A DNA stretch of 64,000 bases from a virus: positions 1 to 64,000 of IMG/VR virus record IMGVR_UViG_3300042559_002030, one strand, 5' to 3'. The notes below the pieces were generated by a model. It was not told the DNA's origin. It did no database searches and saw only the letters and a list, made by a program, of their open reading frames with translations. This document shows positions 24,894-53,830 of this stretch, in pieces. Every line of letters starts with the position of its first letter. The stretch's first letter is position 1. Made by a program: the position numbers and the translations under genes.

Positions 24894-25484
24894 TCAGCGC
24901 TTTTCCACAATTTTATCAATCAACCCATAATCCAGCGCTTCCGCTGCACTCATAAAGGTGTCTCGGTCCATGTCGCGCTCAAATTCCTCATAGGTTTTGC
25001 CACGGCTGTTGTGCTTGACATACAGATCGGTCAGCATCTTTTTCATATGCATGATTTCTTTGTAGCTGATTTCAATGTCACTGGCCATGCCACGGGCACC
25101 ACCCGACGGTTGGTGTATCATGTGTCGTGCATGTGGCAGCATCAGTCGTTTGCCCGCTGTGCCAGCCTGTGCCAAAAATGACCCCATTGAGCAGGCTTGT
25201 CCCATCACAATGGTGCTGACATCGCATTTGATAAAGTTCATTGTGTCATAAATGCTCATACCTGCGGTAATAACACCGCCTGGGCTGTTGATGTAAAACA
25301 GGATATCTGCGTCGGGATTTTCACTCTCCAAAAATAACATTTGTGCAACGATCAAGCTGGCACTGTGATCACTGACTTCGGTATCCAACATCACAATACG
25401 ATCTTTGAGCAGACGGCTGTAGATGTCGTAACTGCGCTCGCCTTTGGAGGTTTGCTCGATTACCATTGGGACTAGATGGGGCAT
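24894..25484 (-). CDS. clpP: ATP-dependent Clp protease proteolytic subunit (ClpP)
   Basis: 196 residues, close to bacterial ClpP length. [20 protein letters not shown] is the canonical N-terminus. The triad is intact: Ser99 in GQACSMGS, His124 in HMIHQPSGG, Asp175 in [12 protein letters not shown] (67-70) forms the oxyanion strand. ClpP forms a 14-mer peptidase chamber fed by a Clp ATPase. ClpX is encoded at 49933-51141. AAGGAATT precedes the ATG; a sigma70-like promoter drives it alone. No propeptide-like extension is seen. Confidence 0.9.
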
Positions 25485-25584: not shown

Positions 25585-27135
25585 ATGAGAGATTTAATCA
25601 ACATACTAGATGATTTGCTTCAGGAAGCAACTCTGAGCCCGGGTGAGATCACCAAGTATCCCGAACGCTTTGACGCATTTATTGCGCACATTCAAAATAA
25701 ACGGCCATTCTATACCGAAAAAGAAGGCGCCGAAGTTGTGTTGGCTCCCGCCGAAGCTGACAGATTCTTAAAGATGAAAGCAGCCGGCGAATTCCAAGGC
25801 AGCATCAAAGCAGTCGACGCCGATGGAAAACAATGGCCGCTTTCGAACTTTAGAAAAACTGCTGAATTTGGTGGCAGCAGCGCCAAGCCCGGAGCGCAAG
25901 CACCTGGGCAGACCAGCAAAGAAGGTGTATTGGTCAAACCAGCACAGATTGGTATTACTGATCAGGCCATTCCAGCAGATGAGTTTGGTGCGGCCATTGT
26001 GAATAATCCAGTGCTACAATCAACTGAATACGGACAAGCAGTCATCGTCATGGCACAGAATATCATGGCTGGCAATCCTGCTGTGATGCCTGACGAAATT
26101 CGCAAAAACGACAAGCTAAAAAAAGCCATTGTGGATTACGCAGGGGAATATCTTGGTGTGCTGGCATTGGTCTACAATCAATCCAAATTTGCATCGCGTG
26201 ACCAGTTTTTAGCCTGGTTGGGCACAGATATGATGAGCCTGGTATTGAGCTTTCCCAGTGAACAAAATAATCCCATTGCTGACAGTTTTGCTTCAGTTAC
26301 CAATCCAGAAAATGCACACACACTAAACATCAGCAGCAAGGGCACCGGCGGCGGCGCTGCACCCAGTGTGAGCAGCTTAAAGATTCCTGATCATCTGCGT
26401 TCAAAGACTCAATACCAAACAGCAATTGATTTGATTGAGCTGTGTCAAAACGAAAATTTACCCAAGCCATGGACTGTGAGTCAAGTGTTCCAGGTCATGA
26501 ATTTGTTGAACCAGCGGTTGGGACCTGACGCGATCCCTGCAGACTTTCAACCATTCCTTCCTTGGTCAAAAGATATTGTGGCCCAGGTGTCAGACAGTTT
26601 AAAAAATGGCACAGCCATGCCCAAGTACGAGCCACTGTTTGCCAAGTTAGACAGCAAAGGCAGTGACGGTGGAAAACTTACCTATGTGACCAAAGCTGCT
26701 GTGATGAACATTGTGAACAGCGGAGCAGTCCCTGAATTTCAAGCTGTTGTGCTGGAAGTGTTGGATTACAATTTCATTCAGCAGTATACCACAGCATCTG
26801 GCAACACGCTGATTTTCAACACTCAATGGCCTGCAAAACTTGATGGCGAAGTTACTATAGAATCAAAATCTGGCGGCGTTAACCCTACCAAAGGCGGATT
26901 CAGTTTCAAACTCAAACCCAAAGGTGCCAGGTCTGAACCCAGTATGGAACCGTATGATGCGGATGCCGCTGGGACTGGGCAAGAACCTGCAAATCTAAAT
27001 GCTGCCGACCTAGATGCAGTGACACAAAAACGCTCAAGAGTTACTGCTAGAGCCGGCGGCGACGAAGACGAGACAGAAGTTGTGAAACCTCCGAGAGATA
27101 ATGTGCCAATGTTTGGCCGTAAACGTCAGCGCTGA
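25585..27135 (+). CDS. Large unknown phage protein
   Basis: 516 residues on the plus strand. N-terminus MRDLINILDDLLQEATLSPG resembles the start of conserved T4-like phage proteins (ATLSPGEITKYPERF), then a short domain to residue 70, a low-complexity linker, a soluble middle domain and a basic RKRQR end after an acidic/Thr tail. No catalytic motif recognised. Weak ribosome site. Overlaps the convergent ClpP-like gene by 10 bp. Confidence 0.65.
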   Translation: MRDLINILDDLLQEATLSPGEITKYPERFDAFIAHIQNKRPFYTEKEGAEVVLAPAEADRFLKMKAAGEFQGSIKAVDADGKQWPLSNFRKTAEFGGSSAKPGAQAPGQTSKEGVLVKPAQIGITDQAIPADEFGAAIVNNPVLQSTEYGQAVIVMAQNIMAGNPAVMPDEIRKNDKLKKAIVDYAGEYLGVLALVYNQSKFASRDQFLAWLGTDMMSLVLSFPSEQNNPIADSFASVTNPENAHTLNISSKGTGGGAAPSVSSLKIPDHLRSKTQYQTAIDLIELCQNENLPKPWTVSQVFQVMNLLNQRLGPDAIPADFQPFLPWSKDIVAQVSDSLKNGTAMPKYEPLFAKLDSKGSDGGKLTYVTKAAVMNIVNSGAVPEFQAVVLEVLDYNFIQQYTTASGNTLIFNTQWPAKLDGEVTIESKSGGVNPTKGGFSFKLKPKGARSEPSMEPYDADAAGTGQEPANLNAADLDAVTQKRSRVTARAGGDEDETEVVKPPRDNVPMFGRKRQR

Positions 27136-27701
27136 AGTATTGAAATGCTATCGCAGATGCGGAGTCTTAATGCATCTTCGGCAGTGAGCCATACATCATG
27201 TGGTGGTAGTAAATTTTTACGAATGTTTTCTTCATCAAGCCCAGTGCATTCTTGATAGTGCTTGACCATACGGTGTTGAGTCAGTTCAAACTCTTTCATA
27301 GTGGCAAATAACTCATGAACCTTGCCTTCGTTGTACCAAGAGAATTGATGACTCAGTATCGAAGTGTTTGGAGTCAACACACGGCGTCCAGCACTGCCAG
27401 CAAGAAAAATCAACAGTCCCGAACTGGCAATCATTCCCAAGCCCACTGTCTTTACAGGAATAAGACTGCTGCGCATCACATCAATCAAGGCAAATGCATC
27501 TTGTACATCGCCGCCCTCACTACAGATCATCAACAAGAGTTCTTTGCGTTTTTTCTTGGACACAAAGTTTTCGTGTAAAATCCATTCAATCACCGGTTTG
27601 ACTGTTTCAGCATTGATTTCTCCCATCAGCACATACATGCCTATGTCGGCCAAGGCCTGTGTGTGGTCTTTGTTGAATTCTGTATCTGTTTGGTTTGCCA
27701 T
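27126..27701 (-). CDS. Second, diverged ClpP-like protease
   Basis: 191 residues. CSEGGDVQDAFALIDVMR matches the ClpP oxyanion region (SxGG), Ser93 in MIASSGLLIF, His118 in SILSHQFSW and Asp169 in PPHDVWLTAEDA complete a plausible triad. The divergence from the gene at 24894 is large, so these are not a recent duplication. In bacteria with two ClpPs, mixed rings form; whether that happens here is inference. Weak ribosome site. Confidence 0.75.
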   Translation of the reverse strand: MANQTDTEFNKDHTQALADIGMYVLMGEINAETVKPVIEWILHENFVSKKKRKELLLMICSEGGDVQDAFALIDVMRSSLIPVKTVGLGMIASSGLLIFLAGSAGRRVLTPNTSILSHQFSWYNEGKVHELFATMKEFELTQHRMVKHYQECTGLDEENIRKNLLPPHDVWLTAEDALRLRICDSISILQR

Positions 27702-29711: not shown

Positions 29712-30515
29712 TCACACTTGTTGCAGTCCTGTTGTGGAAATGTTGGCCAACCGTTCTTTGGGAGCAACCAACATGTTTTGGTAATCAACCAAATAAAAAG
29801 AATAATCGGTAAGGTCTGCCAGGGCTGCTTTGATTGGTTCAGTTCCGGTGATGAAATACTCAACCCAAATCCACGGACGATATTGTTTGATTGTGTTGAG
29901 AGCTCCGGTCAACGCTGGAACTTCGTATCCTTCAACATCCAATTTGAAGAAATCCAGTCTGGGCAAATGCATGTCATCAATGCTTACAATGTCAACCAAA
30001 CGGTCTGCCATCCAGCTGTCTTCAATGAGTTTGGTTTGATCGTTCAAAGACACTGTGCCAAAATCTTCTATGCGACTGTAATCCACTTTGGGCAAAGTGC
30101 CGATGCCGGGTTTGGCGCCAAGTCCACGGTTGTGTAGATACACATGATCGTATCCGTTCAAGGCCAAACTGCCACCCAAGGCATGGAACAATTGTCGTTG
30201 TGGTTCAAACGAAATGATCCTAATGCCGCGGCCCTGTGTTTTGTGGGCCACAGGCACAGTGAAGAATCCAATGTTGGCTCCACCATCCACAATCACTGCA
30301 TCATCGGACAGTGTGTTGATCAATGCAAAAATATTGGCCAACTCACTTTCGATGTGGGTACGGCCGGTCTTGACCAAGGCTTCGGCCTGGAACAAACAGG
30401 TTCTGGCCACAATAAATTTACCATACACACTGTCTAACACTACAAAATTATCTACAGACACATCGACTCCATTTGTTTGTTTGTGTACACTCAAGAAAAA
30501 ATCCAGTTCATGCAC
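29712..30515 (-). CDS. FkbM-family methyltransferase
   Basis: 267 residues. VIVDGGANIGFFTVPVAH is the SAM-binding motif I, IISFEPQ motif II, DFFKLDVEGYEVPALTGA the FkbM signature, and RPWIWVEY a later conserved block. FkbM enzymes O-methylate sugars or polyketides; in phages and bacteria they often modify glycans. The start is uncertain: GTG 30515 lies within the upstream hairpin and TTG 30494 is an alternative. Confidence 0.8.
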   Translation of the reverse strand: MHELDFFLSVHKQTNGVDVSVDNFVVLDSVYGKFIVARTCLFQAEALVKTGRTHIESELANIFALINTLSDDAVIVDGGANIGFFTVPVAHKTQGRGIRIISFEPQRQLFHALGGSLALNGYDHVYLHNRGLGAKPGIGTLPKVDYSRIEDFGTVSLNDQTKLIEDSWMADRLVDIVSIDDMHLPRLDFFKLDVEGYEVPALTGALNTIKQYRPWIWVEYFITGTEPIKAALADLTDYSFYLVDYQNMLVAPKERLANISTTGLQQV

Positions 30516-30564: not shown

Positions 30565-30846
30565 TTACTTGGCTTTGGCTGTGCTTTGAGCAGAGTAGGC
30601 CTTCATGATACCTTCACCAAATTTGGAATAGTCAAACTTGGCAGCAGCCTGTGCAGCTTTGACTGTTTCAGCAGCAATTTCTTGTGCAGCATCAGTGGTT
30701 GCTTTGAATGCTTTTTTGGTGTAGTCAGCTTGACTGTCAACAAAATGATTCATTGACTCGGCAATGTGATTGTTTGTGATGAAAGTTTTGATCCAGGTTT
30801 TTTTGGCTGTTTGGACGGTGTCCACGAATGAGTCGGTTGTAAACAT
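30565..30846 (-). CDS. Phasin-like small helical protein
   Basis: 93 residues: FVDTVQTAKKTWIKTF, HFVDSQADYTKKAFKATTDA, then a long Ala/Lys helix. This resembles phasin-type proteins, which coat polyhydroxyalkanoate granules, and similar small proteins in T4-like phages. AGGAGAAAA precedes the ATG. Abundant low-complexity helix makes the family call moderate. Confidence 0.6.
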   Translation of the reverse strand: MFTTDSFVDTVQTAKKTWIKTFITNNHIAESMNHFVDSQADYTKKAFKATTDAAQEIAAETVKAAQAAAKFDYSKFGEGIMKAYSAQSTAKAK

Positions 30847-30915
30847 AATTTTCTCCTAATTTAAGCGAGTTTACTGAAAATAAGACCCGCCTTATTGCGG
30901 CATCCTATGGTTGTT

Positions 30916-39254: not shown

Positions 39255-40514
39255 TCATGTTGTTTTACGAGTATTTCCGTAGTGTATTACTGTAATGTCA
39301 TTCATGGTCTTGGACAGTTTACGCCACGGATCAACAATGACACTGCCGGGATGAATTGTACAGTACGGTTGAGTGTCCTGCTGATCACCGGTGTATTCGT
39401 AAGTGATCTTGCGATTGTGAGCCCATAAAAATACCGCGGGCCCGTCAACTGTGGCCACCACATCAGCAAGGTCGTCGGCCAATGGGTCAACATACTTGAC
39501 CAATACTCCCAGTTCTTTCAAGTAGTGTCCAACCAGGGTGCTGTAGCTGCCAATGCAGTATGGTACATCGGGTTTGTAGGCTTTGCCGTGAATCACAATG
39601 GGTAAAAGACCAAAGGCTTTTCCGTCCTGAAGGGCTGTGTCAAACAAAAACTGAGCAAGATTCTTTGCCTGCACTTCTCTAGCACTCATCACAGTGTCAA
39701 ACAGATCGTAGCCAATGTCGTATTCTTCGGCCAGCCACCGCAGTGCAATGTTGTCACGGGGATGGCAAGCACCGGCATCGCCCATGCCTGCTGTCATGTA
39801 CTTTGGACCCATGATACGCATGGTGCTACGAGCCAAGGCATCAGTTACTACATCCACATTGATATTGCCAATCTTCATGGCAAAGTCCTGTATCATGTTG
39901 ACCAGTCCAACTTTGGCCGAAATGAATGTGTTGTAAAAAATCTTTATTGCTTCGCATTCGTCCCAGGTGCCAATTTCGTAGCGTGGATTGTTGGCCATAA
40001 TCTGTTTGTAAATGTCTACCAGTTCAGATGCTACCCCGTTCCAGTTGCCATCTTCGGTTCCGATCATGACCATTTCTGGATGAGCCATGTCCCATTTGAC
40101 CGAACCCATGGCAATCAAGTAAGGATTGTATAAAAATTGATGTTGCTTGTCTAGTAGATTAACAAAATGCCTGCGAGTGGTTCCGGGCAGCACTGTGCTG
40201 ATCAACACAATCTTTTTAGGCTCTGTGGCGTATTGATTTATTTTGGCAATGGCATCTTTGACAGCATCATGTCCAAAATCTTTTGGCGTCATATGACTGC
40301 TGGGAACCGAACCGTCGTATCCAGCTTCGTGCGGTGTAGGAACAGCAATAAAAATCCATTCACTTTCATTTACAGTTTCTTCAATGCCGCAAACTTTTAT
40401 CAGGTCACTGGTTCTTGGGTAAATATCATAACCCCGCACTGTGAACTTTTCTGCCATGACTTCGGCACAATCCAGCCCCAATTTTCCAATGCCAATAAAG
40501 CCTATATTTTTCAT
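39255..40514 (-). CDS. UDP-glucose/GDP-mannose dehydrogenase family enzyme
   Basis: 419 residues. GFIGIGKLGLDCAEV is the NAD-binding motif; VPTPHEAGYDGSVP, TVLPGTTRR and EAIKIFYNTF (Lys191) are family blocks; GMGDAGACHPRDNIAL carries the catalytic Cys250. It oxidises a UDP- or GDP-sugar to the uronate in two steps. The N-terminal region is shorter around 30-50 than in bacterial Ugd. The start codon lies three bases from that of the divergent gene. Confidence 0.8.
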   Translation of the reverse strand: MKNIGFIGIGKLGLDCAEVMAEKFTVRGYDIYPRTSDLIKVCGIEETVNESEWIFIAVPTPHEAGYDGSVPSSHMTPKDFGHDAVKDAIAKINQYATEPKKIVLISTVLPGTTRRHFVNLLDKQHQFLYNPYLIAMGSVKWDMAHPEMVMIGTEDGNWNGVASELVDIYKQIMANNPRYEIGTWDECEAIKIFYNTFISAKVGLVNMIQDFAMKIGNINVDVVTDALARSTMRIMGPKYMTAGMGDAGACHPRDNIALRWLAEEYDIGYDLFDTVMSAREVQAKNLAQFLFDTALQDGKAFGLLPIVIHGKAYKPDVPYCIGSYSTLVGHYLKELGVLVKYVDPLADDLADVVATVDGPAVFLWAHNRKITYEYTGDQQDTQPYCTIHPGSVIVDPWRKLSKTMNDITVIHYGNTRKTT

Positions 40515-41930: not shown

Positions 41931-42932
41931 ATGAACAAACTATTAGCTATTTTGCTAGCGGCCATAACTGTCACAGCTCACGCAGACATCACTGGCGCAG
42001 GCGCAACATTCCCCTATCCCATCTATGCCAAGTGGGCAGAAGCCTACAAGAAAGAAACAGGCATTGGACTCAACTATCAGTCAATTGGTAGTTCAGGTGG
42101 CATACGCCAGATCAACAACAAAACAGTGACCTTTGGTGCCAGCGATGCTCCAGTAGCAGGTGCAGAGCTAGACAAGCTAGCACAAGTACAGTTTCCCGCC
42201 ATCATTGGTGGCACAGTGCCTATTGTGAACTTGGAAGGGTTTAAACCTGGAGAGTTGCGAATCACTGGCACAGTGTTGGCAGAAGTGTTTCTGGGTGACA
42301 TCACTCGTTGGAATGATGCCAGACTGGCAGCACTGAACCCTGGCAAGAAGCTGCCTGATCAACCAATCACCGTGGTTCATCGTGCAGACGGGTCGGGCAC
42401 AACATTCAACTGGACTGACTACTTGACTGTGGCCAGCACCGAGTGGGCCAAGCGTGTGGGTCGTGGTGCAGCAATCAAATGGCCTGCTGTGAGCAGTATT
42501 GGTGGCAAAGGCAACGAAGGTGTTGCAGCCATTGTGAATCGTACCAAGGGCGGCATTGGTTATGTTGAGTATGCTTATGTAAAGAAAAACAACATGACTT
42601 TTATGCAGCTACAGAACAAAAACGGTAAATTTGTCAGCCCTGATGATGTGACATTTGCGGCCGCAGCCGCAGGTGCTGATTGGTTCAGTGTGCCGGGCAT
42701 GGGCTTGAGCATTGTGGATCAAAAGGGTGATGCGGTCTGGCCAATAAGCACTGCCAGCTTTATTATCATGTACAAAGATCCAGCAGATAAAAAATCTTCA
42801 GCTGAAGTGCTCAAGTTCTTTGACTGGGCATTCCGCAACGGCAAGAAGGATGCTGCTGACCTTGACTATGTGTCATTGCCCGACAGCTTGACTAAACAAA
42901 TTCGTGAACGAGTTTGGACACAGATCAAATAA
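41931..42932 (+). CDS. pstS: Phosphate ABC transporter substrate-binding protein PstS
   Basis: 333 residues. Signal peptide 1-18 (MNKLLAILLAAITVTAHA). GAGATFPYPIYAKW, IGSSGGIRQI, FGASDAPV and HRADGSGTTFNWTDYL are the phosphate-contacting blocks; length matches bacterial PstS. Periplasmic phosphate binding for the host Pst transporter would supply phosphate during infection, as known for cyanophage pstS. AAGGAAC precedes the ATG, a Pho box lies upstream, a terminator follows, so it is an independent unit. The protein is close to proteobacterial PstS, suggesting acquisition from host. Confidence 0.95.
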   Translation: MNKLLAILLAAITVTAHADITGAGATFPYPIYAKWAEAYKKETGIGLNYQSIGSSGGIRQINNKTVTFGASDAPVAGAELDKLAQVQFPAIIGGTVPIVNLEGFKPGELRITGTVLAEVFLGDITRWNDARLAALNPGKKLPDQPITVVHRADGSGTTFNWTDYLTVASTEWAKRVGRGAAIKWPAVSSIGGKGNEGVAAIVNRTKGGIGYVEYAYVKKNNMTFMQLQNKNGKFVSPDDVTFAAAAAGADWFSVPGMGLSIVDQKGDAVWPISTASFIIMYKDPADKKSSAEVLKFFDWAFRNGKKDAADLDYVSLPDSLTKQIRERVWTQIK

Positions 42933-44920: not shown

Positions 44921-47167
44921 TTATTTTTTGTATTGACTGTCCACCATGTCTTGGTGGATTCTATCACTGCGCACCAGCAGCAATCTTGCTGCAGGTGAGT
45001 CTATGTTGCGCTGCCCAGGATAGATATCAAATGGCTTGTATCCCACAGCGTCGGGTATGGTGCTGCGGCTGTATGTATCAAATCCTGCTACAAATCCCAT
45101 TGCACCTAGTACCACGGATTGCAGTTCAACCTGTTGTTCCATGCTGCCTGCTGCGTCCATTTGTGCTGCCATTGCAGCAGGATTTTGTTTGGCCGCGGCT
45201 GTTGCTTTTTCACGGGCTGCTTCCATTCTGCGTTCGGCCAAGGCTTGCCGATTGGTTTTGGGCTGTTCTTTTGAACCGCTGCTGTTGGAGGTGCCGGAGG
45301 TGCTGCTGGTTGCATCAGCAGTGGCCTTGGTTTCTTTTTTGCTTTCTGCAGGTGCTGCTGCGGCCACGGGTGCAGGTGGTGGCACAAGTTGCACAGGGGC
45401 AGTGGCAGACTCTGCAGGCGATGCTGTGGCCATTGGTGCAGGTGCTGCTGGAGGTGCTGGTTCGGCTGCTGCCGGAGCGGTGTTTGCTATGGCCATGACT
45501 CCGACTGACACTGTTTCTTCTGCCTTGGGTTTTTCAATCACAATGTATTTCAAAGCATAAGCTTCACGATAGCCTGTACACTGCGAATTGTAGAGTGGAT
45601 CCAGGCCGCACTGTTGATCAAAGTAGGCTTGAGCATATCCTGTACATCCTGAATCATACAGTGGACTGCCAGTGCATTGTTGTACATAATAGGCATCAGC
45701 ATACCCAGGACACTGCGAATTGTAAAGTGTGTTCAAGCTGCACTGTTGGTCAAAATAGGCCTGTGCATATCCTGTACAGCCTGTGTGGTATAATGGGTTG
45801 GCCGAACACTGATAATTGTAGTAGGCAGTGGCATATCCTGGACAGGCAGTGCTGTACAAGGAATTGGCTGTGCATTGTTGGTTGAAATAGGCCTGAGTAT
45901 AGCCTGGACACTGTGAGCTGTATAACGCATTGTTCGAGCACTGTTGATCAAAATAGGCCTGTGCATAGCCAGCACACTGTGAGTTGTATAGGGGATTAGC
46001 ACCGCACTGTTGGTCAAAGTAGGCCTGTGCATAGCCCGAGCAGGTGGTTGAACTAAGTGGGTTGACCACGCACTCGTCTATGGTATAAGCAGCCTGGCTA
46101 TACATACCAAAAATTGTAGAATTACCTGCAGTCGTAGCTGAGTATCCAATGTTGCCCAGTTCAGTGATTGATCGGGGATTGGCAAATCTGTATTGATAAT
46201 CTCTACTGCGATTGCCGGTATTATTGCCAGTTTCGCTGTGAGTAACATCATACAACAGGCTATTGGTGTTGCTGCGAATTTTAAAGTTCACATCCACTCG
46301 CGGATTAAATGTCATGGTCCATGAGCAACTGCCGTCTTGATTGAACGCTGTACACTGAGAGTATGAGCTGCCCAGATTGTATTGATAGCCATAATTGAAA
46401 CCGTGGATCACAACACCAGCGCCCACTGAACTCAGGGCCTGGTTGATGGCATAGGTCTGATTGATGCCTTGGCCGGCAGTGGTCCAGTGGTTGGGAAATG
46501 GCACCAGGTTGTCTGAAATAATTGTGTAGCCCGGGCATGAAGGCGAACTCTGAGGATTGGCCACACAAGGATCCGGCGGTGCCGAGGTATAGTTCACAGT
46601 CATCTCAACATCGCGCACCTGAGGGCCGTAATATCCACCCCAGTTACCGCTGTCGTTGGCCACAAACTGAATGCCCAGGGAACCACTATCTGCCAGGCTC
46701 ACACTAGTGGGCAATCCCACTGTGCCAGAAAATCTAGTCCAGTCAAACTGTGTGTTGTAGTGTCGGTCATCTTGCGCTAGAAACTGATTGAACCGATTGG
46801 TCATGAATGTGGTGGCCACAATAGAGTCAGTTCCGGTTTGCACACCACGCACACCGTTCATGTTTCTCAAATCATAGCCCCAGTTGTACCCATTGATTTG
46901 TACACCAGAACCAGACAGTGCTTGATTGATGGCTATGACTCTATGCACTGCGGTCAGAGTGTAGGAGAAATGTATGGTGTTGGTTGCAGGATCATACAGA
47001 GGTTGTGGACCGCCCCAGCAACACTCATTGGCACCGGGATGAGTGCCGGTCACTACATTGTTCCAACTGCCTGTGAGTGGAGCACTGGTTCCTGTGGTCT
47101 GTGCTGACACAGTCAACCCTGAGATTGACACAGCCAATGCCACAAGCAGTTGACTGATCAGTTTCAT
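44921..47167 (-). CDS. Large secreted protein with seven Cys-rich 21-residue repeats
   Basis: 748 residues. Signal peptide 1-22 (MKLISQLLVALAVSISGLTVSA). N-terminal beta-rich domain to about 360 with two related halves (both begin around INQALSxxGxxxxG.NYGY). Residues about 375-525 are seven tandem units GYAQAYFDQQCxxNPLYNSQC, two Cys each. Then an Ala/Pro-rich linker and a C-terminal domain containing an Arg/Ala helix and GYKPFDIYPGQRNIDS. Cell-envelope or virion location; the repeats could be disulfide-linked. No enzyme motif. Confidence 0.7.
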   Translation of the reverse strand: MKLISQLLVALAVSISGLTVSAQTTGTSAPLTGSWNNVVTGTHPGANECCWGGPQPLYDPATNTIHFSYTLTAVHRVIAINQALSGSGVQINGYNWGYDLRNMNGVRGVQTGTDSIVATTFMTNRFNQFLAQDDRHYNTQFDWTRFSGTVGLPTSVSLADSGSLGIQFVANDSGNWGGYYGPQVRDVEMTVNYTSAPPDPCVANPQSSPSCPGYTIISDNLVPFPNHWTTAGQGINQTYAINQALSSVGAGVVIHGFNYGYQYNLGSSYSQCTAFNQDGSCSWTMTFNPRVDVNFKIRSNTNSLLYDVTHSETGNNTGNRSRDYQYRFANPRSITELGNIGYSATTAGNSTIFGMYSQAAYTIDECVVNPLSSTTCSGYAQAYFDQQCGANPLYNSQCAGYAQAYFDQQCSNNALYSSQCPGYTQAYFNQQCTANSLYSTACPGYATAYYNYQCSANPLYHTGCTGYAQAYFDQQCSLNTLYNSQCPGYADAYYVQQCTGSPLYDSGCTGYAQAYFDQQCGLDPLYNSQCTGYREAYALKYIVIEKPKAEETVSVGVMAIANTAPAAAEPAPPAAPAPMATASPAESATAPVQLVPPPAPVAAAAPAESKKETKATADATSSTSGTSNSSGSKEQPKTNRQALAERRMEAAREKATAAAKQNPAAMAAQMDAAGSMEQQVELQSVVLGAMGFVAGFDTYSRSTIPDAVGYKPFDIYPGQRNIDSPAARLLLVRSDRIHQDMVDSQYKK
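45565..46050 (-). repeat. Tandem 63-bp repeats inside the secreted protein gene
   Basis: Seven units of about 63 bp encode the GYAQAYFDQQC..LYNSQC repeats. Units differ at 10-30% of codons, so they are old enough to have diverged, but still align end to end. Confidence 0.75.
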
Positions 47168-48200: not shown

Positions 48201-48989
48201 ATGCAAATGACCTTTGATTTAATTTCCGACCTGCATTTGGATCCGCATGAGACCCTGGACTGGATGGGGCAAGCTACCAGTCCTATTTGTATAGTTGCCG
48301 GAGACATTTCCCGTGATGTAGAAGTGGTAAGAGAAACTCTTGAGCACTTGGGCAAATGCTATCAAGCAGTGTTTTATATAGATGGCAACAACGAACACAG
48401 ATACAATTTAGATGTGATTGAACAAAGTTATTCCATACTGGAAGAAGCAATAACTGACATTCCAAATGTTGTGTTTTTACAAAACAACTGTGTGATCATC
48501 AATGGTGTTGCTATCATTGGCACCAATGGATGGTGGACCTGGGACTTTGATCGCAACATAGACGAACAACAGTGCAAGCTGTGGTGGACTGATGTGATGA
48601 AAACCAATTACGATACCACCGCAGAAATAGAGTCTTTTGCATTTGATGATGTTGCTTATCTAATCAACAGTGTTAAAAAACTACAAACACATTCAGATGT
48701 CAAACGCATTGTTGTGGTCACGCACACTGTGCCTGCCATGGATCTTATCAGTCACGATGTCAGCATAACCGACACCTACGAGTTCAACAAAATGGGTAAT
48801 TCGCACATGTCGCTAGTGCTGGACGAAGACACTGAAAACAAAATAGACACATGGTGCTTTGGTCACTATCACAATTCAGTAGATCGCAACATCAACGGGG
48901 TACGCTATGTGAACAATTGCAAGGGCCGACAAGAAGACAGTGGCTGGACACCAACTTATTATCCCAAACGCATCAGCATAGATTTTTAA
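48201..48989 (+). CDS. Calcineurin-like metallophosphoesterase
   Basis: 262 residues. SDLHLD (Asp10, His12), AGDIS, GNNEH, VTHT and GHYH are the five metal-binding blocks in order. Hydrolyses phosphomono- or diesters; in phages nucleotides or nucleic-acid ends are candidate substrates. No ribosome site visible before ATG 48201. Convergent with clpS, with 7 bp between ends. Confidence 0.85.
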   Translation: MQMTFDLISDLHLDPHETLDWMGQATSPICIVAGDISRDVEVVRETLEHLGKCYQAVFYIDGNNEHRYNLDVIEQSYSILEEAITDIPNVVFLQNNCVIINGVAIIGTNGWWTWDFDRNIDEQQCKLWWTDVMKTNYDTTAEIESFAFDDVAYLINSVKKLQTHSDVKRIVVVTHTVPAMDLISHDVSITDTYEFNKMGNSHMSLVLDEDTENKIDTWCFGHYHNSVDRNINGVRYVNNCKGRQEDSGWTPTYYPKRISIDF

Positions 48990-48996
48990 ATTTTAT

Positions 48997-49311
48997 TCAA
49001 TGCACAACTGTTTCAGGTTCCAGCTTGATCTGCAATGGAAAATTATGATTGCGAGCATCCACAGTGACTTCGATGCCTTTTTGTTCAGCAATTTCGTAGG
49101 GCAATACTGCTACCACTGCGGATCCAGAATTATGGATATCTTCAGTGATGGCGACAGCAGTGTCTGCTGTGTATTCAAAGTGTGTGATTAAACTTTCAAC
49201 TACAAAATCTACAGATGTCTTGGTGTCGTTCAAGTAGATGATCTTAAACATTGGTGGTTCACGCAGTTCTACTTTTGATTTGATTAATGTATTGATATCT
49301 GGTGATGTCAT
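48997..49311 (-). CDS. clpS: ClpS adaptor protein (N-end rule recognin)
   Basis: 104 residues from ATG 49311 (AAAGGACAC upstream). EPPMFKIIYLNDTKTSVDFV aligns with the ClpS core; Asn28-Asp29 and His60 of DIHNSG correspond to the residues gripping the substrate N-terminus. Asp at position 30 is Thr and the Met gate is Val, changes seen in some divergent ClpS. ClpS delivers substrates with bulky N-terminal residues to ClpA in bacteria; no ClpA is seen here, but clpX is nearby. Confidence 0.8.
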   Translation of the reverse strand: MTSPDINTLIKSKVELREPPMFKIIYLNDTKTSVDFVVESLITHFEYTADTAVAITEDIHNSGSAVVAVLPYEIAEQKGIEVTVDARNHNFPLQIKLEPETVVH

Positions 49312-49372
49312 AGTGTGTCCTTTGTTGTAGTAGTGGCAGCACTGTGCTGCCACTGTACTTATGATTATTATA

Positions 49373-49831
49373 TTACTTTTTGTAGTTGATTGCAATGGTC
49401 TTTGGCTTGGCTTCTTCAGGAATATCACGCTTTAGGTGTATGCTCAAGATGCCCAGTTCAAGATTTGCATTGACAATTTCCACATGATCAGCCAACTGAA
49501 ATTCCCTGCGGAAATGTCTTTCACTGATGCCTTTGTGCAGATATTTTGCAGTAGAATCTTCATTGTCCACAGTTTCACGGCTGTGCTTACCTTCAATGAC
49601 CAAAACTTTTTTGTCCTTGATCACTGAAAGATTGTCGTCGCCAAATCCGGCCACAGCCACAGCAATCATGTACTCATCTTCGTTGATTTGTACAATATCA
49701 TAAGGTGGATAATTTGTGGTAGATTGTTGAGCACTCACACGCATGAGATCATCAAACATGTTGTCGAATCCGATGCCAAATTTGTGAATTGCAGGAATGT
49801 CGAAAGAGCGAAGGGTGAGAGTTTTTGTCAT
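49373..49831 (-). CDS. Small heat-shock protein (Hsp20/IbpA family)
   Basis: 152 residues. YPPYDIVQINEDEYMIAVAV starts the alpha-crystallin domain, KYLHKGISERHFRREFQLAD and GILSIHLKRDIPEEAKPK end it, with an I-x-I-like IAINYKK tail. Holds unfolding proteins for refolding or degradation. Known in T4-like cyanophages. Strong AAGGAG; strong promoter overlapping a late motif. The position between clpS and clpX suggests a joint proteostasis role. Confidence 0.9.
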   Translation of the reverse strand: MTKTLTLRSFDIPAIHKFGIGFDNMFDDLMRVSAQQSTTNYPPYDIVQINEDEYMIAVAVAGFGDDNLSVIKDKKVLVIEGKHSRETVDNEDSTAKYLHKGISERHFRREFQLADHVEIVNANLELGILSIHLKRDIPEEAKPKTIAINYKK

Positions 49832-49896
49832 TTGTTTTCTCCTTTATTAAGCAAGATGACTTTTAAAATGTAGCCCCACCATGGGCACTACACGAT

Positions 49897-49927
49897 TATT
49901 TATAACAGATATCTCAACATCTGTCAA
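49897..49927 (-). promoter_or_regulatory. Combined sigma70 and late-type promoter of hsp20
   Basis: TTGACA, 17-bp spacer, TATAAA; the -10 continues as TATAAATA, a perfect T4 late consensus. Early and late polymerase forms could both use it. Confidence 0.7.
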
Positions 49928-49932
49928 TAAAT

Positions 49933-51141
49933 TTAAGAATTTTGTTGTTCTAATTTAAGAGGCGTTGTGACTTGTGTTTTGTCAATGGCAATTTTTAGCA
50001 CATTGCGTGACTGATAATCTTTCAAGTTGTACATATGCGGCAACAACACACGCTCTAGTTCTGTATGCAGTCCACGAGCACCAGTTTTTGTGACCATTGT
50101 GCGTTCAGCAATTAGATCTAAACTGTCGGTATCAAAGTCCAATGCTACCCCATCTTGGTTAAACAACCATCTGTACTGACCAACCAGGTTGTTTTTTACT
50201 TCGGTAAGAATGGTAATAAGTTGTGGTTTGGTCAGCTCGTCCAGTTGTATAATGCTGGGAAATCTTCCCACAAACTCCGGTATCATTCCGTAGCGTACTA
50301 GATCGTCTGGAGTGATTGCTTCTGTTGTGGCGTTGTTTGGCACTGTTAACTTTGCACCAAATCCAATGGCAGTTCCGTGTGTGCGGGTTTTGATAACTTT
50401 GTCTAGCCCAACAAAAGCTCCACCACAGATAAACAGGATGTTGGTAGTGTCGATGTCAACTGTTTCACCTGTTGAGACCTTGCGACTATTTTGCTGGGCC
50501 ACTTTGCACTTGGTACCTTCGATCAGTTTGAGCAGTGCTTGCTGCACACCCTCGCCGGATATGTCCCGTGTTACCGTGGCGCTTTCGCTTTTGCGGGCTA
50601 TTTTGTCTACTTCGTCTAGGAATATAATACCGCGCTGTGTGCGTTCCACATCATTTCCACTGGCATGATATAACCGTGTGATCAAACTGTCAACATCATC
50701 ACCCACATAACCTGCTTCGGTCAATGTGGTTGCATCTGCAATGACAAAAGGAACATCTAAATATTTGGCCACAGTACGGGCCATCAGTGTTTTGCCTGTG
50801 CCGGTTGGTCCTGTTATTAAGATATTGGCTTTTTGTATTTCTTGTTCTAGACCTGTATCACTGATGCGCTTGTAATGATTGGCCACAGCCACACTCAACA
50901 CAATTTTAGCAGTTGGTTGACCAATCACATACTGATCAAGATATTTGTGTATTGCTCGTGGATCTAAAATTGATTCTTCTGTGACGTTTTTTGTTTTGGC
51001 CTGTTCTTTTATCAGTAGCCCGTGACAAAAATCAACACACTCGTTGCATATGCCTACATTGTGCCCCACAATCAGTTTGACGACTTGATCCTTGTGCTTG
51101 TCACAAAAACTGCAATGCGTGGGTGTTGATCTGATGGTCAT
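49933..51141 (-). CDS. clpX: ClpX ATPase subunit
   Basis: 402 residues. N-terminal zinc domain with Cys10, 13, 32 and 35. Walker A GPTGTGKT (111-118), pore loop GYVG (144-147), Walker B IIFLDE (172-177), second pore RDISGEGVQQ, IGF ClpP-docking loop (259-261), GRFP (292-295) and sensor II GARG (354-357). Everything needed for an AAA+ unfoldase that feeds ClpP. Length as in bacterial ClpX (about 420). It follows the membrane gene by one base. Confidence 0.95.
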   Translation of the reverse strand: MTIRSTPTHCSFCDKHKDQVVKLIVGHNVGICNECVDFCHGLLIKEQAKTKNVTEESILDPRAIHKYLDQYVIGQPTAKIVLSVAVANHYKRISDTGLEQEIQKANILITGPTGTGKTLMARTVAKYLDVPFVIADATTLTEAGYVGDDVDSLITRLYHASGNDVERTQRGIIFLDEVDKIARKSESATVTRDISGEGVQQALLKLIEGTKCKVAQQNSRKVSTGETVDIDTTNILFICGGAFVGLDKVIKTRTHGTAIGFGAKLTVPNNATTEAITPDDLVRYGMIPEFVGRFPSIIQLDELTKPQLITILTEVKNNLVGQYRWLFNQDGVALDFDTDSLDLIAERTMVTKTGARGLHTELERVLLPHMYNLKDYQSRNVLKIAIDKTQVTTPLKLEQQNS

Positions 51142-51142
51142 T

Positions 51143-52891
51143 CTAGTTTCCAGTTAATCTTTGTTCAATCTGTTCTCTCTCGGCATCACTCAGCAGGTCT
51201 GGATCATACTCACCAGTGTCTATCTTGGAGATGAGATAATCAATGTATGCTTCGTCGTGTGCGTAACGGTCACTGAGAGCTTTGTCTACTTCTATCCAGC
51301 CAAGGCCATTGAACTTGTACAGCACACTTGGCAGTCGGTCTACACGCAGATAGCTGTCGCCTTTGTTGGGAGCAGTAGGAAACGCAATGCCAAATCCTGA
51401 TTGTGTTTCATTGCCCAAATCAATATCTGGAACCAAGCTAGAATTGTATTCTGCTGCCAACCAAGGAAGTTGTGCCAGTTTTCCCATGTCAACTAGTCGT
51501 CGTTGAAATTTCAAAGTGTGGCCGGGGTGAGCTGCTTTCCATCGTCTGGCCGCGTCCTTTTCAACAGAATCCATCGAACTAAGTTCGACATCGTCATCCA
51601 TTGGGTCGTCGCTGCTGATAATTGTTGTTGGTGGCTGCACTTCTGGCTCAACCACTGTTTCCGGTTGCACAAACAATTTGTAAGAACGGTACTCTGAGGG
51701 CAATGGCTGGGTAAAATCAAGTTCTAGTTGATCATCCCACAATGGGCCGTCTAGTACATCACACGCCTTGTTGGGGCAAAATAGCCCGATGCCCGGTGCA
51801 TTTACTAAATCAGTGCCGCACTTGTGACAAGGGATAGTATCTTCTTCAATGATGTACTCTGTGGTCTGCGGTACAAAGTCATTGATGCTTGGATGTTTTG
51901 GCAGTGTAGTTGTTTCACCCGGTTTATACACCATTGGTGTAAGATTTTTAAAATGCACAAACGGCTGGTCCAGATAAGGGTGTTGCTGTGCTAGTGTTTT
52001 TTTAATCTGTTCAACCTGATGGCCGGTCAACGCGCCGTCGTCGGCTTCATACTTGGGCTCGGCCACTCTGCCGAGATCCTGCATTGTTTCTGTTAACTCT
52101 TGCTCAATCCTTTTGTGGGCGTCTTCATCCGTTTCTTCACGATTCCATTTTATACTTTGTTGAGCAGCAAGAATTAACATCAGCGCCAGAGGATCAAACA
52201 CTGCAACAATAATAATAATCACCCATGTCACTGCTTTTTCCAACAAATTGGCGTCGGGATTATCACCATAGATAAATGCCGCAATGTATTTTATTGGTCC
52301 AACCTCGGCTTCAACTTTACGGACCTCAGCGGCAATAGGCGCACGGGCATCGTTAAGTTCCGCAATAGACTTTTGCGACTGCGATATTTCAGCTTGAAGG
52401 CGAGCACGTTCTTTCTGCTGGGCTCGACGCAGAGCCACAGCTTTGTCGGCACCCGTTTCTGATGTTGAGCGGCCCAGTACTTGGTCCACTCCTTCATCCA
52501 TCTGTTTAAGTGCCTTACGGTTTGCTTCAATATTCTCTTTTTCGGTTTTGATTTTTTCATCATATATTGCAATCTTACTGGTAACATCGCCCGACACCAG
52601 ACTTTGATCGCTGTGTGCCTTGCTCAAAAAGCCAAAAATGCCCATGCTGGTCAACAACATGAGGAATACCAGTGCTGGAACCAGATACAGTTTATAAGTT
52701 ATACTGGCACGGTGCCAATTTAATTTCAACCAAATTGCGGCTGTGATTTTGCCTACTCCAAGTGCAACACCCATAATAACCACCGGCCAAAAAGCTGCGG
52801 AAAAAATAGAAGTCAGGCCTATAATGCTATAGAACTCTGCCACTGCACTGATGACCAGTGCAACAAATAATGTAAAGTATCCGAATATCAT
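51143..52891 (-). CDS. Large membrane protein with coiled coil and zinc ribbon
   Basis: 582 residues. Hydrophobic segments near 4-22, 30-52, 70-92 and 222-247; a coiled coil of about 100 residues between the third and fourth; then a zinc ribbon (CHKCG...CPNKAC) and a conserved C-terminal domain (YKFNGLGWIEVDKALSDR). I recognise the C-terminal block from T4-like cyanophages. ATG 52891 lies 6 nt after a late -10 motif, so the mRNA may be leaderless. Function unknown. Confidence 0.65.
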   Translation of the reverse strand: MIFGYFTLFVALVISAVAEFYSIIGLTSIFSAAFWPVVIMGVALGVGKITAAIWLKLNWHRASITYKLYLVPALVFLMLLTSMGIFGFLSKAHSDQSLVSGDVTSKIAIYDEKIKTEKENIEANRKALKQMDEGVDQVLGRSTSETGADKAVALRRAQQKERARLQAEISQSQKSIAELNDARAPIAAEVRKVEAEVGPIKYIAAFIYGDNPDANLLEKAVTWVIIIIVAVFDPLALMLILAAQQSIKWNREETDEDAHKRIEQELTETMQDLGRVAEPKYEADDGALTGHQVEQIKKTLAQQHPYLDQPFVHFKNLTPMVYKPGETTTLPKHPSINDFVPQTTEYIIEEDTIPCHKCGTDLVNAPGIGLFCPNKACDVLDGPLWDDQLELDFTQPLPSEYRSYKLFVQPETVVEPEVQPPTTIISSDDPMDDDVELSSMDSVEKDAARRWKAAHPGHTLKFQRRLVDMGKLAQLPWLAAEYNSSLVPDIDLGNETQSGFGIAFPTAPNKGDSYLRVDRLPSVLYKFNGLGWIEVDKALSDRYAHDEAYIDYLISKIDTGEYDPDLLSDAEREQIEQRLTGN

Positions 52892-53801: not shown

Positions 53802-53830
53802 ATTATAACAGTAGCAACCAGTGTTGTCAA
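53802..53830 (-). promoter_or_regulatory. Consensus sigma70 promoter
   Basis: TTGACA, 17-bp spacer, TATAAT, a perfect consensus, about 36 nt before GTG 53766. Begins the 52910-53766 unit. Confidence 0.85.

Follow-up and report, generated by a model that had tools for sequence, protein, structure and literature searches.

The presence of genes for ClpS, a small heat-shock protein and ClpX side by side in a viral genome raises the question of which proteolytic machine a phage-encoded ClpS serves and how its synthesis is controlled. The locus lies in a stretch of 64,000 nucleotides, hereafter the window, taken from an IMG/VR record of 105 kb. An earlier note had regarded the locus, together with two genes for ClpP, as an unusual set which suggests that the phage runs its own regulated proteolysis. 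The reading favoured here, at roughly two chances in three, is that the phage encodes ClpAPS for N-degrons and a separate ClpXP, with hsp20-clpS under its own promoter and a ROSE-like leader as part of a small heat-shock regulon. Gene identities and a conserved RNA structure were observed, and from these we infer docking, substrates and a response to heat.

Identity and arrangement of the genes

ClpX, Hsp20, ClpS, ClpP1 and ClpP2 are all real members of their families (Table 1). ClpX scored 1e-31 against Pfam AAA_2 and 1e-12 against zf-C4_ClpX and reached 509 bits with the NCBIfam ClpX equivalog, for which the cut-off is 359. In 54/54 relatives it has kept the cysteines of the zinc domain, the Walker and sensor motifs, the GYVG pore loop and the I/M-G-F loop, in agreement with the motor motifs, zinc domain and IGF loop previously ascribed to it. 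The loop that reads ssrA, RKH, is RKV in the window and its H is retained in 35/54 relatives. The open reading frame of ClpS opens with a GTG at 49428, inside hsp20. Since the ATG at 49311 is preceded by a good Shine-Dalgarno sequence (AAAGGA) the start was placed there, so that ClpS is likely to be free of overlap with hsp20. It consists of an 18-residue N-terminal extension ending in EPP, followed by a core with the N-degron pocket and the ClpA-docking residues.

Table 1. Positions of the features discussed, numbered from the first base of the window
Feature	Position	Strand	Remarks
ClpP1, orthodox ClpP	24894..25484	(-)	Pfam 2e-78; Ser-His-Asp and most of the hydrophobic docking cleft kept
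ClpP2, divergent ClpP	27126..27701	(-)	Pfam 4e-27; triad kept, docking cleft largely changed
Phasin-like helical protein, 93 aa, behind the second element	30565..30846	(-)	No Pfam or NCBIfam family
Second ROSE-like element	30844..30908	(-)	Rfam ROSE_3 match at 30841-30909, 31.1 bits, E 2.8e-5 vs gathering score 43
ClpS, 104 aa	48997..49311	(-)	Start corrected to ATG 49311; Pfam ClpS 1e-20
Perfect hairpin in the hsp20-clpS gap	49330..49356	(-)	z -3.3; no U-tract in the clpS direction
Hsp20 / IbpA-like small heat-shock protein, 152 aa	49373..49831	(-)	Pfam HSP20 2e-16; NCBIfam IbpA 9e-37, under its cut-off
ROSE-like two-hairpin 5'UTR of hsp20	49829..49892	(-)	Covarying hairpin I; hairpin II UUGCU facing Shine-Dalgarno; 71.3 bits
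Sigma70-type promoter TTGACA-N17-TATAAA, before hsp20-clpS	49899..49927	(-)	
ClpX, 402 aa	49933..51141	(-)	Unfoldase with C4 zinc domain, GYVG pore loop and IGF ClpP-docking loop; Pfam and NCBIfam
Conserved membrane and coiled-coil protein	51143..52891	(-)	Next gene upstream of clpX in almost all relatives
Perfect sigma70 promoter	53802..53830	(-)	Likely start of transcript 53308-52910-51143-clpX

The three genes are indeed adjacent on the minus strand, between 48997 and 51141, as had been noted, and relatives of ClpS were found in 577 viral stretches. The order clpX-hsp20-clpS on one strand was seen in 77/77 viral contigs long enough to judge, which excludes chance as the source of the gene set; together with the matches to Pfam and NCBIfam families this confirms that the Clp set is genuinely encoded by phages. 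Across loci the identities of ClpX and ClpS were weakly correlated (0.32). No Pfam match was found for the membrane and coiled-coil protein encoded next to clpX. The hairpin between hsp20 and clpS is a possible element of mRNA processing or stability, and a metallophosphoesterase gene (48201-48989, plus strand), convergent to clpS, is there in nearly all relatives. Other genes of the window include one for a secreted-looking 748-aa protein (44921-47167) with about eight cysteine-rich repeats of the form QCxxNPLYxSxCxGYxxAYxxQQC and auxiliary metabolic genes for a phosphate-transporter subunit (41931-42932), a UDP-glucose dehydrogenase (39255-40514) and an FkbM methyltransferase (29712-30515).

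The Ser-His-Asp triad was intact in both ClpPs and in every relative, and the claim that the phage encodes two ClpPs thus stands. The positions of the docking cleft are those of E. coli ClpP. From their sequences the two proteins may form an asymmetric ClpP1-ClpP2 particle, with the ATPases docking on the ClpP1 face.

Phage ClpA

A first impression that the phage was without ClpA proved wrong, as clpA sits outside the window. A genome of 340,172 bases (G001) carries the window region at 99.7-100% identity; since its ends (L126 and L128) overlap by ~430 bases and are bridged by positions 1-33357 of the window it was taken as a closed circle, and it is in effect a complete circular map, of ~339.7 kb, of the same species as the window. 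ClpA is absent from the window's own 105-kb record and was assigned to the window phage via this map. The longest contigs of relatives were 320-347 kb, and ClpA, at 757-801 aa and with a Clp_N domain, was present in all five genomes of that size and in three fragments. Most relatives come from freshwater-type metagenomes, judged by the look of the hosts.

The phage ClpA of 757 aa matched Pfam Clp_N, AAA and AAA_2, has a ClpP loop and is without the middle domain. Its closest match in the PDB is E. coli ClpA (4e-168), and its NCBIfam ClpA score of 784 bits lies under the cut-off of 993. The KYR, GYVG and IGF loops are kept, and the ClpS-contact residues E28, T81 and R86 were kept in 8/8 sequences; E23 was kept in 6/8 and is replaced by G or A in the window's species, where it is G, and in G002, another of the genomes. 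A gene for DnaJ is located just upstream of clpA in the same-species genome, again outside the window.

Fold and binding sites of ClpS

Structure prediction was run as a test of whether the protein encoded at 48997 folds as ClpS. It does: the AlphaFold2 model had a core pLDDT of about 84 and an rmsd of 0.8-1.1 Å to PDB 3gq0, 3o2o and 1mbx. Conservation of the residues that bind the N-terminus, the other point on which the assignment had been made to depend, was partial. Among 53 distinct phage ClpS, in which 33/77 core columns were invariant, the alpha-amino ligands N34 and H66 were found in all, as were the other pocket residues D35, T38, V43 and L99. However, the third alpha-amino ligand, D36, varied between N, S, T, D and E (D in 4/53, N in 39, T in the window), the gatekeeper M40 was retained in only 31/53, the window having V at this position, and M62 was T in 52/53. 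Binding of N-termini by the phage ClpS is thus plausible and its N-degron specificity has probably shifted.

Bacterial ClpS docks on the ClpA N-domain via E79, E82 and K84 (PMC12493166) and its N-terminal extension is threaded into ClpA (PMC9663308). Each of these three residues (E. coli numbering) was found in 53/53 phage relatives, and the proline junction, EPP, in 52/53.

Which machine ClpS serves

The gene neighbourhood suggests that ClpS feeds the phage ClpX directly, in a ClpS-ClpX-ClpP machine. ClpS and ClpX are neighbours throughout the window's lineage, and the zinc domain of ClpX is an adaptor platform. However, it is precisely the residues for docking on the N-domain of ClpA that ClpS has kept, the phage has a ClpA, the ClpX of the window carries just an ordinary zinc domain and AAA module, and in the cultured phages PA5oct and Phosso ClpS lies away from ClpX yet near Hsp20. 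A ClpS-ClpX machine is therefore highly improbable and was rejected; with the ClpA-docking residues of ClpS invariant and a phage ClpA encoded, ClpX in all likelihood acts independently of ClpS. The idea that the phage runs its own regulated proteolysis gains from the completeness of the Clp set, but the partner of ClpS appears to be a ClpA encoded outside the window and not the neighbouring ClpX. It has also been proposed, in a 2021 survey, that jumbo-phage ClpS targets host ClpAP (PMC7824862). That the phage protein mainly retargets or blocks host ClpAP would fit with this published proposal, with the generic nature of the ClpA-docking residues and with the altered N-degron pocket of the window, but is rather unlikely in phages that own both ClpA and ClpP, which make host ClpAP unnecessary. 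Both ClpPs match PHROG families of head maturation proteases, and they, perhaps with ClpX, might serve virion maturation instead of quality control. This is improbable: PHROG families of this kind pick up every ClpP, the sequence of ClpP1 is much nearer to that of cellular ClpP (263 bits Pfam, 309 NCBIfam), ClpP1 is not in a head gene fusion, and ClpS, ClpA and the chaperones are without a known role in prohead cleavage.

In the preferred reading, of ClpAPS alongside a separate ClpXP, ClpS would catch proteins with destabilising N-termini and pass them to the phage ClpA, and possibly to that of the host too. ClpA would unfold the substrates so delivered into ClpP, ClpX would form a second, ClpS-independent ClpXP, and Hsp20 would hold aggregating clients for disaggregation or degradation. 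Production of N-degrons by a phage Leu/Phe-transferase was considered and rejected, none being found among 14 phage records.

Promoter and leader of hsp20

The promoter before hsp20-clpS, TTGACA-N17-TATAAA, is one of three such sites in the 64 kb, against 0.03 expected. Some 95 nt ahead of the start of hsp20, 32/55 distinct relatives had a match to a sigma70-type promoter with no more than 2 mismatches, vs 1/55 shuffled. We infer that hsp20-clpS is transcribed as a unit of its own from a strong sigma70-type promoter.

The leader that follows has two hairpins. A search that required at least 4 outer pairs detected hairpin I in 51/52 distinct leaders, PA5oct and Phosso included. In an alignment of 70 hits to a covariance model (66 of them distinct), which was fitted to the model and so favours pairing, 11 of 15 pairs had changes on both sides, mainly in hairpin I; such cells numbered 122, vs 27 after shuffling, and pairing held in 97% of cells vs 42-60% with the arms slid. 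MAFFT alignments misplaced hairpin I and were left out of these counts. Hairpin II sets CUUGCUU against AAGGAG, and in the 66 distinct elements the 3' hairpin carried U(U/C)GCU facing the Shine-Dalgarno sequence (second base U in 54, C in 12). U(U/C)GCU opposite the Shine-Dalgarno sequence defines ROSE thermometers, among which the Pseudomonas ibpA leader has two hairpins in ~62 nt (PMC3669281). The hsp20 leader of one relative, L010, matched Rfam ROSE_3 with 31.8 bits (E 1.7e-5; gathering score 43), and that of the window gave no ROSE match at E<=10; scans at Rfam gathering scores returned nothing, no tested member reaching the ROSE_3 cut-off. For these reasons the leader is named ROSE-like and is not filed as a member of ROSE_3. 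A sub-threshold match of 22 bits to the Rfam freshwater-2 RNA (RF02980) was seen at 49829-49924, with an identical AAAGGAGAAAACAAAUG end, and the families may be related.

The leader would hide the Shine-Dalgarno sequence and gate translation of hsp20, and should open as the temperature rises. Nearest-neighbour folding of the window leader with Vienna, which cannot score the non-canonical pairs of ROSE elements, had the Shine-Dalgarno sequence paired at 0.50 at 5 C and 0.58 at 42 C; that no melting was computed may be expected if sensing rests on such pairs.

Other copies of the element and the chaperone slot

A strict descriptor of the element had 198 matches, with 0 in shuffled DNA. Those before hsp20 numbered 179, a figure that includes contigs retrieved with a piece of the leader itself and contigs counted twice, and the other 19 were associated with dnaK, with helical phasin-like proteins of 80-93 aa, with short ORFs upstream of groESL and with fragments at contig ends. 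With the covariance model, R1, 2-3 copies were found per 320-347 kb genome, one at hsp20 and a second at a site which, where read, is the phasin-like gene. One of these genomes, G003, has a copy directly before groES, and the single R1 match in Atu_ph07 and in Phosso is at hsp20. In the window the second element probably controls the 93-aa phasin-like protein. The pairing of element and phasin-like gene recurs in relatives (L126, L127, L229 and L233).

The interval between clpX and hsp20 contained DnaK in 6 loci and GroEL in 7 (with groES too where read) and is thus an exchangeable chaperone slot. DnaK stands there behind a ROSE-like leader in L020:7535-9436 (complete, 633 aa), L032, L036, L067, L078 and L084; it was found in these other relatives and in neither the window's own species nor the complete relatives. 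The groES-groEL pair occupies the slot in L010:7441-9384 and L019:7467-9363 and is located elsewhere in G003 and L322:1501-1860. In both L010 and L019 an ORF of 14 or 8 codons comes after the element, and groES has a promoter of its own. The closest bacterial matches to the DnaK of L020 share 67-75% identity with it, and those at the top are from Burkholderiales (such as Hydrogenophaga, Limnohabitans and Polynucleobacter), typical freshwater bacteria whose relatedness hints at the hosts. The thermometer model gave one weak match (E 0.6) in 15 bacterial genomes near the phage DnaK, with 150 candidates scored per genome.

A switch of translation that answers to some signal other than temperature, be it an RNA-binding protein, autoregulation or mRNA stability, is possible and deserves some weight, given that hairpin I is the most covarying part of the leader, that folding energies show no melting and that the element also precedes the phasin-like gene and, in L010 and L019, very short ORFs upstream of groESL. 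However, the anti-Shine-Dalgarno motif U(U/C)GCU, the two-hairpin layout and the ROSE_3 matches point to ROSE thermometers, as does attachment of the element to hsp20, dnaK and groES, and a heat-sensing leader remains the preferred reading.

Significance of a proposed phage heat-shock regulon

With the same leader on dnaK, groES and the phasin-like gene, these phages would possess a small heat-shock regulon of their own, which would protect production of virion proteins under host stress. The balance of the evidence tips towards a wider proposal, that a lineage of freshwater phages of ~320-347 kb runs a virus-encoded regulon in which ROSE-type thermometers couple translation of Hsp20(-ClpS), DnaK, GroES(L) and the phasin-like protein to temperature, feeding a complete ClpAPS and ClpXP system; PA5oct, Phosso and Atu_ph07 would have weaker counterparts. 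Phage Clp genes have usually been listed singly, as individual auxiliary genes. In these phages they make up a locus that is conserved and ordered, together with ClpA, ClpP and an interchangeable Hsp70/Hsp60, and it appears that the phage, and not the host alone, can control proteostasis during infection. What is new, and of more interest than the Clp set, is the conserved ROSE-like leader before phage hsp20 together with the interchangeable Hsp70/Hsp60 slot. The leader looks like a bacterial heat-sensing RNA switch, a kind of element that was unexpected in phages; in the literature searched, largely open-access papers, RNA thermometers of jumbo phages were not described. If the leaders sense heat then temperature-gated translation of chaperones would be a viral trait too, and one that may affect infection in lakes of differing temperature.

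Comparison with known systems

The earlier note had thought a set with ClpS and a holdase unusual, but all 77 contigs carry it, as do PA5oct, Atu_ph07 and Phosso. The phage Clp kit is already known from cultured jumbo phages and has been in print since 2018/2021, the 2018 genome paper of Atu_ph07 listing ClpX, ClpA, ClpB, ClpP and ClpS (PMC6102473). Matches of ClpS to Acinetobacter phage MD-2021a were rejected as phage genes: CAKLQF020000008.1 and CAKLQH020000043.1 have the bacterial order argC-clpS-clpA and look like host contigs. These records, and OR845177.1, a 3-kb clpX record that may be a host contig too, inflate counts of phage Clp genes.

Pseudomonas phage PA5oct (Wroclawvirus) resembles the window phage in having the order clpX-S21-x-x-hsp20-clpS within 3.2 kb, ClpP and ClpA in its genome, and a related hsp20 leader with a TGCC/GGG hairpin and a UUGC anti-Shine-Dalgarno. 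It differs in that its proteins are 28-42% identical, it has one ClpP, S21 and two more genes are inserted, and its leader was missed by R1 at E<=0.1. Agrobacterium phage Atu_ph07 has ClpX, ClpP and ClpA, with hsp20-tk-clpS running across the origin of the record, and Sinorhizobium phage Phosso has ClpX, Hsp20-TK-ClpS, ClpA and two ClpPs; in both, unlike the window, a thymidine kinase lies between hsp20 and clpS and the leader match is weak (E 0.02-0.03), and in Phosso ClpX is 17 kb away.

The phage elements share with ROSE thermometers (Rfam ROSE_3 RF02523; Pseudomonas ibpA) the two hairpins, a 5'UTR of ~62 nt, U(U/C)GCU against the Shine-Dalgarno sequence and a small heat-shock gene downstream, and their hairpin I (GAUGCCG...CGGGUC) is like that of ROSE_3. 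They differ in lying in phage genomes behind a sigma70-type promoter, in scoring under the Rfam gathering score and in serving, besides hsp20, the genes dnaK and groES and one for a phasin-like protein. Compared with bacterial ClpAPS (E. coli, Caulobacter) and ClpXP, the phage proteins have D36 and M40 changed, M62 replaced by T nearly throughout the family, a second, divergent ClpP and genes arranged in phage operons, but share with them the fold, the ClpA-docking residues, most of the N-degron pocket and the catalytic triads.
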